From positions 1-44,816 of the forward strand of contig JAKSOF010000004.1 of NCBI GenBank assembly GCA_024405735.1: a DNA stretch of 44,816 bases, given 5' to 3'. Under the pieces are notes generated by a model, which worked only from the letters and a program-made list of their open reading frames with translations, was not told the origin of the DNA and did not search any database. Of this stretch, positions 11,734 to 17,185 are shown piece by piece. The position numbers were made by a program, and so were the translations under genes. Every line of letters begins with the position of its first letter. Within the stretch, counting starts at the first letter, position 1. The stretch is from Victivallaceae bacterium. GTDB lineage: Bacteria > Verrucomicrobiota > Lentisphaeria > Victivallales > Victivallaceae.

Positions 11734-11773
11734 AAAAGTCGGTCGCAAACGATTGTTTGCACCGACTTTTTTA
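11734..11773 (+). terminator. Intrinsic terminator of tRNA-Gln
   Basis: The left arm 11734-11750 pairs with 11755-11770 around a GATT loop with a single bulged C, and T8 closes it. An outer 10-bp inverted repeat (GAGAATCATG at 11714-11723 with CATGATTCTC at 11801-11810) encloses it. Confidence 0.88.
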
Positions 11774-12240
11774 TTATACTTCCTGCGCGTTGTCACGCGC
11801 CATGATTCTCTTGGGGGTTGCGTTTCGCTTCGCTCACGCTCGCCGCTATAATTACGTGCGCTCTCTATCGTTCGCGCCCTCCATTATGCGTCGTGCCATC
11901 TTAATGGGCCTCGACAAAAGGTTTTCAAACACTCACCGTCGGTCGCAAACTATTGTTTGCACCGACTTTTTTATTATACTTCCTGCGCGTTGTCACGCGC
12001 CATGATTCTCTTGGGGGGTTGCGCTCGTTTCTCTCGCGCTCACCGCTACGCGGTGTGCCATCTTAATGGGCCTCGACAAAAGGTTTTCAAACACTCACCG
12101 TCGGTCGCAAACTTGTTTGCACCATCTCTTTTATTTTGTTCTTTTGCGCGTTATCACGCGCCATGATTCTCTTGGGGGGTTGCGTTTCGCTTCGCTCACG
12201 CTCGCCGCTATAATTACGTGCGCTCTCTCACGTTCGCGCT
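11734..12240 (+). repeat. Tandem array C of three 145-200-bp units behind tRNA-Gln
   Basis: Three units start at 11738, 11938 and 12100. Each begins with GTCGGTCGCAAAC and its partner GTTTGC, i.e. a copy of the tRNA terminator. The hairpin is intact in units 1 and 2 (11938-11966) and decayed in unit 3. A GCGCGT/ACGCGC hairpin and CATGATTCTCTTGGGGG follow in all three. A 40-bp junction block with ATGGGCCTCGAC is shared at about 11897 and 12057, and TTGCGTTTCGCTTCGCTCACG is shared by units 1 and 3. Short open frames here differ in codon use from the neighbours and only mirror the repeat, so I see no gene between 11696 and 12538. Confidence 0.85.
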
Positions 12241-12262
12241 CTCAGTTGCTTTGGGAAATGCA

Positions 12263-12412
12263 GCAACTGCGCTGTCATCCTCTACGGACTTTTACGGACA
12301 AAACCGACGCGTCATCATTACGTGATTTTATCCTTTCCTCATTACGCTGATTGTCCGTTAGTGTCCATTCCCGCTTTTTTTCGCCCGGCAGGGCGGGGCA
12401 AACATCTGCGCG
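12263..12412 (-). repeat. Dispersed intergenic repeat B, copy 1
   Basis: The reverse complement matches 28055-28217. Shared parts are the CGCCCTGCCGGGCG hairpin, a run of AACGGAC-like heptamers, a nearly unchanged core containing AATGAGGAAAGGATAAAATC, and TTTTGTCCGTAAAAGTCCGT followed by GAGGATGACA and GCAGTTGC. It sits at the end of tandem array C and upstream of the helicase promoter. No coding function is supported. Confidence 0.8.
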
Positions 12413-14648: not shown

Positions 14649-14680
14649 AAAAAAAAGACCGTCGCGGTTTCCCGCGACGG
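14649..14680 (-). terminator. Intrinsic terminator of the MotA/B-like unit
   Basis: A perfect 9-bp GC-rich stem (14659-14667 with 14672-14680) with loop TTTC is followed on the minus strand by a T-run at 14649-14656. It lies 20 bp beyond the stop codon of the coiled-coil gene. Confidence 0.88.
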
Positions 14681-14700
14681 CTTTTGCCGAATGATCTTTT

Positions 14701-16578
14701 TCAGCGTTTGAGGTGCGTACGCATATAATCGCCGAACTGGTGATACAACTGATCGGTCACTTCGGCGGAAATCTGAATTTTTTCCGCATCCTGCCAGAGG
14801 GAGGCATCGCAAAGGGCGACGCGCGCTTCCTCGTAACGCCCGGCTTCGGCGAGCGAAACGACGACACCGACAAAATCACCGTCGTTGGTCATCACGAAAT
14901 CGCCGATTTTCGCCTTGATCTCGTTGGCGTTGCGGGCGTTGTTGCGGATGATCAATGCGGAAGCCCCCGGTTGAAGATCCAGTGAGCAGCGGTCGCCGAG
15001 CGGCGTACTGTCTTTGCCGCAACTGGTCGTCTTGAAAAGGGTAAGACGCTGGACCCCGCGTTGACGGAGTTTATCCGCCGGAACGGCGCGAAGCGGCTGA
15101 ACTCCGGCGATTTGTGCAATTTCAAAGGCGCCGAGATAAGGTTCGCGTTTGGAAACGAGCAACGGGGTTGTTATTTTCGATGCCGCCGCTTTGCCGCCGG
15201 AAAGGTGAAATGCCAGTTTGTCCACTTTTTGGAAGTGGAAAGGCTCGCCATCGCCGCCGGCAAACATCGGCAATGCGCCGATCAGATAACTTTTGTCGCC
15301 GAGTTTCACGACGGGCAGATAGTGGACAAAATTGCGGCCGAGATCGCTCAACACGCGCTTTTCATGGATCTCAATGCCGAGTTTCACGACGGCATTCTGA
15401 TAATGGTCGAATAAATTCGTCCCGGTCTGCTGACGCAAGAACTGCAACTGCTCCTTGGCGGCTTTTTCCGCCGCCTGTGACTCCACAAGTTGCTTTTTGG
15501 TTACGGCAAGCGCGGTTTGCGCGGCTTTTTCCGATGCGCCTTTTGCCGCCAGTTCGACGGCGGCGATTTTGGAAAGATTTTCCATATTGTTGCGGGCGAT
15601 CTCGGCTTCGCGGCGACGTACATTCGCCTGAGTCAATTCACGCTCCAGTTTCCCCGCCTTGTCCTTCATTTCCGCCAGTTCCCGCGCGGTGGCGGCATTT
15701 TGTCCGCGGAGCCGATTCAATTCCTCCTCGGTCTGCGAATTGCGGCGGATGGTGATTTTCACTTGTCCCTGCACATCCTGCAATTCCCGCTGAGTCTGAT
15801 CGAGCCGGGTCCGGGTGCGGATCAACTCCGTTTTCGATTTTTCCGCGGCATCCCGGTTGGCGGCGGCATTCTTTTTGGAAGCGTCCAGTTCCGTCTCCAG
15901 ACGGGTGCTCTGCAAGCGTGATTTCTCCAACGCGGTCTGCGTTTTGGCGAGATCCTGACGCGAATTTGCCAAGGCTTTTTCCGACAGCGTCAATGCCGCC
16001 TGCGACTGCGCCAAAGCGGCGGTTTTTTTCTCATTTTCCTGCGTTACTTTGCTCAACGACGAACTCATCCGGTTGACGTCGTAGCGCAATTTCGCCTCGC
16101 TCTCGCGCGTCTGCTGCAATGCGCCCTGCGCTTCCTTAAGCATTTCGCGCACCATCCGGATCGAAGCGTTTTTTTCGCGGTCGCGGACTTCCGCCTCGAT
16201 GCGGCGCAGTTTTTCCTGATTGAGCCGTTTTTCCAATTCCTCGCGGGAAAGATTTCCGGTGTTTTCCGGCGTACTCTTGGCGAGTTCCTGAAGCCGCTCC
16301 ATTTCCATCTCGTTTTGGGCGAGTTTGCGGTTCAATTCCTCCAGTTTCGCCTCGTTTTCCGCCGTCATATTGCCGCGCTCGATGTTTTCGCGCAAAGCGG
16401 CGCGCAGTTGCAGAAGCTCGCCGCGGCTGCGCTCCAGCTCGACGATCAGCACGCGCGTACTGTTGGCGTCAAGTCCGATGCCGCTGCCGCTTGAGTTTGC
16501 CGGGACCATTCCCGTCATCATCGAAAGCATCGACGATACGAGAAAGTCGCAAATGACGATTAGAATTGACCGATTCAC
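14701..16578 (-). CDS. Membrane-anchored coiled-coil protein, MotB/TolR-like N-terminus
   Basis: The product is 625 aa. A single N-terminal membrane helix (residues 4-24) carries an acidic residue, Asp11, in 'VICDFLVSSML', as in the proton-carrying helix of MotB, ExbD and TolR. A very long, Glu/Lys/Arg/Ala-rich heptad region (about 45-390) is almost certainly a coiled coil. The C-terminal 220 residues form a separate globular domain with many beta-type stretches; 'IGDFVMTNDGDFVGVVVS' faintly recalls the last strands of trypsin-like folds, but no catalytic triad is visible. No OmpA-type peptidoglycan-binding domain is recognised. The start is GTG, overlapping the upstream TGA (GTGA), so translation is coupled to the 177-aa partner. 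The function is unknown; a force-transmitting partner of an ion-driven channel is an inference. Confidence 0.6.
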   Translation of the reverse strand: MNRSILIVICDFLVSSMLSMMTGMVPANSSGSGIGLDANSTRVLIVELERSRGELLQLRAALRENIERGNMTAENEAKLEELNRKLAQNEMEMERLQELAKSTPENTGNLSREELEKRLNQEKLRRIEAEVRDREKNASIRMVREMLKEAQGALQQTRESEAKLRYDVNRMSSSLSKVTQENEKKTAALAQSQAALTLSEKALANSRQDLAKTQTALEKSRLQSTRLETELDASKKNAAANRDAAEKSKTELIRTRTRLDQTQRELQDVQGQVKITIRRNSQTEEELNRLRGQNAATARELAEMKDKAGKLERELTQANVRRREAEIARNNMENLSKIAAVELAAKGASEKAAQTALAVTKKQLVESQAAEKAAKEQLQFLRQQTGTNLFDHYQNAVVKLGIEIHEKRVLSDLGRNFVHYLPVVKLGDKSYLIGALPMFAGGDGEPFHFQKVDKLAFHLSGGKAAASKITTPLLVSKREPYLGAFEIAQIAGVQPLRAVPADKLRQRGVQRLTLFKTTSCGKDSTPLGDRCSLDLQPGASALIIRNNARNANEIKAKIGDFVMTNDGDFVGVVVSLAEAGRYEEARVALCDASLWQDAEKIQISAEVTDQLYHQFGDYMRTHLKR

Positions 16579-17108
16579 TTGTTGATCCCCGCTTTTTCAC
16601 TTTCCAGTTTCTGACGCAACGGGTAATGCAGCGAGATCCGCAGCACCAGACTGAAAATGATGCCGATCAAGGTCGAACTGTAGGCGATCAGCCGGCTGCT
16701 CTGCGGAGAATAGGACATCACGAGAAACGCCGAGATCGTCCCGAAAAGACCGACGTAAAGCGGCACGTCGAAGAAAATTTCCGATCCCTCCAGACGCACC
16801 AGTTTCAGCGTCGGGGCTTCATCGCTCTGGCGGATCGCATTGACGACCGCGTAGCCGATGCCGAAAGCGAGCACCTGCAACGCGGTGATCGCGACGAAAA
16901 TCGTCATCGAAATACGCGCCGCAAGTTCATTCCGCGCCGCAAAGGACTGCCCGTTCCCGGCGGAAACCTCTCCGACCGTACTGCTTCCGGAGAAAAGATC
17001 GCGCAGCCACTCCGCGTGACCGAAAAGGAAATTCATCGCCACGACAACGGCAATTCCGATCACGGCGATGATGACAAGCGGTTTTTTGTTGATTTTTGCA
17101 ATAGACAT
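16575..17108 (-). CDS. Small polytopic membrane protein, MotA/TolQ/ExbB-like
   Basis: The product is 177 aa with about four membrane segments (10-30, 66-92, 114-133, 139-160). The last two read like the core helices of MotA/TolQ/ExbB channels: 'P-x3-GLFGT' at 116-124 followed by a small loop and 'AYSSTLIGI' at 142-150, with Ser/Thr where TolQ and ExbB have the conserved TT-x-G. A Ser/Gly-rich loop (about 39-60) separates the first two helices. The cytoplasmic domain is short compared with MotA (about 290 aa) or TolQ (about 230). It is translationally coupled by GTGA to the long coiled-coil protein and is the first gene of a terminator-bounded pair. The family assignment is by pattern only and could be wrong. 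Confidence 0.5.
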   Translation of the reverse strand: MSIAKINKKPLVIIAVIGIAVVVAMNFLFGHAEWLRDLFSGSSTVGEVSAGNGQSFAARNELAARISMTIFVAITALQVLAFGIGYAVVNAIRQSDEAPTLKLVRLEGSEIFFDVPLYVGLFGTISAFLVMSYSPQSSRLIAYSSTLIGIIFSLVLRISLHYPLRQKLESEKAGINK

Positions 17109-17156: not shown

Positions 17157-17185
17157 AAAATAGTCCGTCAAAAGGTATAATTCAA
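17157..17185 (-). promoter_or_regulatory. Promoter of the MotA/B-like unit
   Basis: On the minus strand TTGAAT (17180-17185) and TATTTT (17157-17162) are separated by 17 bp, about 48 bp upstream of the ATG. AAAGGAG precedes that ATG. It is divergent from the lptF/G promoter. Confidence 0.55.

Follow-up and report, generated by a model that had tools for sequence, protein, structure and literature searches.

Bacteria use ion-driven motors of the MotAB and TolQR type for flagellar and gliding motility, nutrient uptake, maintenance of the outer membrane and phage defence. In the TolQR(A) and ExbBD(TonB) systems, a channel subunit with GLFGT and AxxxTxxG motifs is encoded next to a partner whose single membrane helix bears an Asp, and TolR or ExbD is complemented by a separate TolA or TonB protein. 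In MotAB and PomAB, the channel subunit has four membrane helices, the last two joined by a short outer loop, and a FliG-binding cytoplasmic domain, and the partner carries an OmpA-type peptidoglycan domain. ZorAB combines a long cytoplasmic tail in ZorA with an OmpA-like peptidoglycan domain in ZorB. An essential Asp of ZorB packs against Ser/Thr residues that form a ring in ZorA (PMC11890865). We analyzed a 44,816-nucleotide stretch of DNA (hereinafter, the window) from a Victivallaceae bacterium (assembly GCA_024405735.1, contig JAKSOF010000004.1), in which two adjoining genes, denoted A and B, share with TolQR(A) and ExbBD(TonB) the two channel motifs and the single-helix Asp partner, and together represent what is apparently a real, conserved and undescribed variant of these motors with an unexpected head. 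The window sits on a 119-kb contig of a 1.9 Mb, 97% complete genome, and the source is most closely related to metagenome assemblies assigned to Victivallaceae and Lentisphaeria, many of them gut-derived.

Gene A (16575..17108, minus strand; ATG start) encodes a 177-aa membrane protein with four helices, and gene B (14701..16578, minus strand; GTG start, assigned from the open reading frame, the overlap with A and the alignment) encodes a 625-aa axle-like protein. The GTG start of B overlaps the TGA stop of A in a GTGA tetranucleotide, and the reading frames and hydropathy agree with the original prediction of such a coupled pair. The terminator that had been proposed after the pair was recovered as an intrinsic terminator 3' of B (14658..14681, minus strand; a 10-pair stem plus T run, CTTTTTTTTG), the strongest in the whole window, but a consensus scan of that strand detected no promoter at 17157-17185, the location suggested for one serving the pair. 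The divergent upstream neighbors of A in the window are genes for an LptF/LptG-type permease and a solute-binding protein; downstream of B is a gene resembling that of ureidoglycolate lyase.

The pair is present in 33 of the 34 members of the genus, the host genome included, the only one without it (G022) being represented by a fragmentary assembly of 76% completeness. Among the 388 genomes sampled across the phylum, 126 match a profile of A, and the family extends to Victivallis vadensis DSM 14823. The operon is retained in Lentisphaeria and in other classes of the phylum, in dozens of species, so that the pairing is far above chance. The four-base overlap between the start of B and the stop of A is found in 59 of the 78 Lentisphaeria loci for which a B was recorded, and B is intact next to A in L034 and L051. 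In genomes from beyond Lentisphaeria, A frequently forms the C-terminal portion of a membrane protein of ~560 aa, and B still comes next (starting, e.g., with MNKTLLLVICDFLLLNILALTRWE). In some members of these other classes (L204, L211, L214 and similar), an N-terminal module of ~370-400 aa, with extra membrane helices and a large, probably periplasmic, loop, precedes A in the fused protein. No family in Pfam, NCBIfam or PADLOC recognizes either protein, the only matches being chance ones or coiled-coil (SMC-like) similarities, and within partial open-access coverage of the literature we found no paper on the pair, in line with its original designation as possibly undescribed.

The hydropathy profile of A includes four hydrophobic segments, with helices at about residues 9-31, 53-94, 115-130 and 135-176, so that A resembles MotA and PomA in its number of membrane helices and in the short outer loop that connects the last two. 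Only about 20 residues separate helices 2 and 3, indicating that the cytoplasmic helical domain of the MotA_ExbB family (PF01618) is absent; A therefore differs from TolQ and ExbB in having four helices without this domain, and from MotA and PomA in lacking the FliG-binding cytoplasmic domain. Two motifs are near-invariant among the homologs, namely PLYxGLFGT at the start of helix 3 (residues 116-124, PLYVGLFGT; 16737..16763, minus strand) and AYSSTLxGI in helix 4 (residues 142-150, AYSSTLIGI; 16659..16685, minus strand), the latter containing putative pore-lining Ser/Thr residues. Among 62 homologs, L117, Y118, G120, A142, Y143, G149 and Q78 are identical throughout, and position 124 is always T or S; at the Thr/Ser positions 144-146 emphasized in the original prediction, S145 is present in 59 homologs, and residue 146 is T in 53 and N in 9.

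The MotA_ExbB HMM matches neither A, at E ≤ 10, nor its homologs, and a sequence profile of A found no relatives among PDB sequences. Alignment of A with the TolQ/ExbB profile using hhalign yielded a pairwise E-value of 8e-4 with a probability of only 25%; a single alignment places LExxxxF...PLYVGLFGT on LExxxxFL...SPYIGLFGT and IAYSSTLIGI on EALIATAIGL of TolQ, and its score was reached by none of 300 full column shuffles and by one of 300 shuffles that preserved hydrophobicity class. The AlphaFold model of A has a pLDDT of 87.4, and in a Foldseek search with this model, MotA/TolQ/ExbB-type chains, with TolQ and PomA in the lead, account for 14 of the 15 best rows and for 25 of the best 50, at weak E-values (0.36 or worse). 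The motor subunit that superposes best on A in VIA-align is ZorA (8vvi_C; Z 10.5, rmsd 2.3 over 98 residues, below the trusted Z for helical bundles), with TolQ (Z 8.7) and ExbB (Z 8.3) superposing on residues 68-177. The whole family falls in the range of Z 7-10.5, below the trusted helical-bundle level, and a designed four-helix pore scores higher still (Z 11.6), so that, for helical bundles, the Z-score is no proof by itself. The MotA/TolQ-like fold anticipated for A is thus tentatively supported by the structural matches to the MotA/TolQ/ExbB/ZorA group and by the motifs, although not by a Pfam MotA_ExbB hit.

The B protein contains only one hydrophobic segment (residues 5-23), with Asp11 (codon at 16546..16548, minus strand) inside it. 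This residue, the conservation of which was central to the original prediction, is present in all 119 B proteins checked, including one B that is unlinked from A (L248). When the frames downstream of A were chosen by hydrophobicity alone, rather than by the presence of the Asp, 118 of 119 had an Asp at the corresponding site (two of them numbered from an earlier start codon); in the lone exception, L213, the frame next to A is a different gene, and the genome encodes the unlinked B ~70 kb away with Asp11 intact. The single N-terminal helix, the conserved Asp and, in nearly all loci, the adjacency to the channel gene are traits that B has in common with partners of the ExbD/TolR/MotB type. HMM searches of B detected neither an ExbD (PF02472) nor an OmpA (PF00691) domain, and no ExbD match in its homologs, so that B is, as had been stated, devoid of the OmpA-type domain of MotB and PomB. 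Judging from its short basic start (MNR or MNK), B is likely to be inserted with the N-terminus inside. We considered B as a lipoprotein (VIC at Cys10) and rejected this assignment because Cys10 is conserved only within the core group and no sequence fits a lipobox.

The membrane helix is followed by a predicted long coiled coil (about residues 45-385; 15424..16446, minus strand), in agreement with the original description. This region is rich in E, A, L, R, K and Q, contains a single proline in 341 residues, is broken by Pro/Gly near residues 104-108, and varies in length among homologs. A straight helix of ~340 residues measures about 50 nm (0.15 nm per residue), which exceeds the typical periplasm, so that the coil must bend, tilt or fold back. 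Whereas in ZorAB the long tail belongs to ZorA and is cytoplasmic, in A-B the long coil belongs to B and is predicted to be periplasmic.

The C-terminal ~240 residues of B (residues 385-625; 14704..15426, minus strand) had been described as an unrecognized terminal domain. AlphaFold confirms a folded end (pLDDT 93.5), which is, however, recognizable as a chymotrypsin/HtrA-type fold that lacks the catalytic triad. A Foldseek search with this head identified DegQ/DegP (E 7e-6, prob 1.00), with DegQ/HtrA on top of 76 PDB chains at E ≤ 0.001, and VIA aligned it with HtrA3 (Z 13.1, rmsd 3.8 over 183 residues); the TM-scores, near 0.47, indicate a divergent version of the HtrA-type fold. An hhalign comparison of the head with HtrA sequences was not significant, so that the assignment rests on structure, and a profile of the head found no relatives among PDB sequences. 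We took the register of the nucleophile from the VIA structure match and from hhalign against HtrA sequences. In an alignment of 85 B sequences, no column is more than 20% His, and V, P, R, A and other residues occupy the position of the catalytic Ser, which immediately precedes an invariant Gly-Asp. With no conserved His and no nucleophile Ser, the head is predicted to be a pseudoprotease. Like the protease domain of DegP, DegQ and HtrA, it has the modeled chymotrypsin-type double barrel, but it differs from them in the loss of the catalytic His and Ser, the lack of a PDZ domain and the undetectable sequence similarity; in the place where ZorB has its OmpA-like peptidoglycan domain, B has this HtrA fold instead.

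The motifs of A and the invariant Asp of B reproduce the ion path described for ZorAB (PMC11890865). We consider it very probable that A-B is homologous to the MotA/TolQ/ExbB-type motors, and likely that its mechanism resembles that of the known ion-driven motors. The more specific reading that we favor, and regard as probable, is that A-B is an inner-membrane motor driven by ion-motive force, a divergent branch of the MotAB/TolQR/ExbBD/ZorAB type in which the axle, the driveshaft and the head are parts of one protein. The membership in the rotary/stator class suggested in the original prediction is thus partly supported, by the motifs, the ranking of the A fold and Asp11, but does not extend to membership in Pfam MotA_ExbB. 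Neither of the two outcomes named there as refuting, a small protein unlike MotA/TolQ in fold and an Asp11 that varies among homologs, was observed.

The weak sequence statistics for A and its middling Z-scores for a helical bundle would also fit a passive membrane anchor or scaffold, in which a small helical membrane protein has come to resemble the motor subunits in its motifs by convergence, without any ion flow. We find this explanation improbable: the two motifs of A and the Asp of its partner coincide with the ion path of the whole superfamily, Asp11 is invariant and located mid-way in the lone membrane helix, and the top structural matches come overwhelmingly from the motor superfamily. 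Somewhat less improbable, though still unlikely, is an envelope sensor, in which the HtrA-fold head would be a binding site for peptides or misfolded proteins, with the membrane pair signaling to an adjoining Ser/Thr kinase. Such a role would suit a predicted pseudoprotease, and in about 50 of the 81 Lentisphaeria loci the next same-strand gene, directly 3' of B, encodes a membrane Ser/Thr kinase of ~850 aa with a Pkinase domain and a C-terminal FGE-sulfatase domain (e.g., in L069, L235 and L238). However, with the query used, we found no such kinase beside the pair outside Lentisphaeria, and the host genome encodes no FGE-sulfatase protein anywhere and yet has A-B intact, which shows that the pair can exist without the kinase; moreover, a sensor leaves Asp11 and the GxxGT and AYSSTLxGI channel motifs unexplained.

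The general likeness to MotAB and ZorAB might instead point to a stator for flagellar or gliding motility or to a Zorya-like phage defence system. The host genome encodes one strong OmpA-type protein and two separate canonical ExbB/TolQ and ExbD/TolR pairs (PF01618 and PF02472) but no FliG, so that A-B appears to be an additional, third motor-like system that is not flagellar. With respect to defence, PADLOC gave no Zorya match for A or B beyond coiled-coil similarity, and no ZorC/D/E-like neighbor was noticed in the neighbor clusters. Given also that the pair is single-copy and genus-wide rather than patchy, a function in motility or defence seems highly improbable.

Under the preferred reading of A-B as a motor, and by analogy with the 5:2 motors (PMC9389320), a B dimer would be encircled, at the level of its membrane helices, by several A subunits, perhaps five. 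The ion path would run along Asp11 of B, opposite the ring of Thr124, Ser145 and Thr146 in A, and ion passage would drive relative movement of A and B, such that B is turned or pushed. B is envisaged to reach into the periplasm through its long coiled-coil driveshaft, with the non-catalytic HtrA-fold head on the tip, where this head may grip a partner in the envelope. In contrast to TolR or ExbD, which operate with a separate TolA or TonB, B bears its own coil of ~340 residues and head and would do the joint work of TolR and TolA (or of ExbD and TonB); with such reach built into B, no separate transducer would be needed. More tentatively, we propose a distinct class of envelope motors of Verrucomicrobiota, in which a substrate-gripping HtrA-fold pseudoprotease might be swept through the periplasm by proton or sodium flow, in many lineages under the control of a co-transcribed membrane kinase. 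A-B looks like a further, uncatalogued motor branch that is genus-wide and spread over a phylum with poorly known envelope biology. If this interpretation is correct, the motor is pared to its membrane core, force is transmitted inside the axle protein, and a retired protease is reused as the working end. Asp11 presents a defined, mutable target in culturable species such as Victivallis vadensis.

A second stator-like operon was observed in six related Lentisphaeria (L276, L277, L278, L279, L280 and L283). It starts with a long upstream protein (~620-1030 aa) and encodes an ExbB-like protein of ~295 aa, with a weak PF01618 match, as well as two different single-helix, Asp-containing coiled-coil proteins (SLFSFQDIITSLTGIM... 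and SLELLLDTMCNTFGG...), which suggest a heterodimeric axle. The same run also includes, in L276 and L279, a gene for a Trypsin_2-type protein with TNxHV and GASGSP motifs. No Trypsin_2/HtrA protease was found in the host genome (G000) of A-B or in most members of its genus, an unusual gap for a diderm. Elsewhere in the window, at 11757-12350, near-identical short peptides (RRSQTIVCTDFFIILPARCHAP and MGLDKRFSNTHRRSQT) are repeated in consecutive small open reading frames, suggesting an intergenic direct-repeat array.
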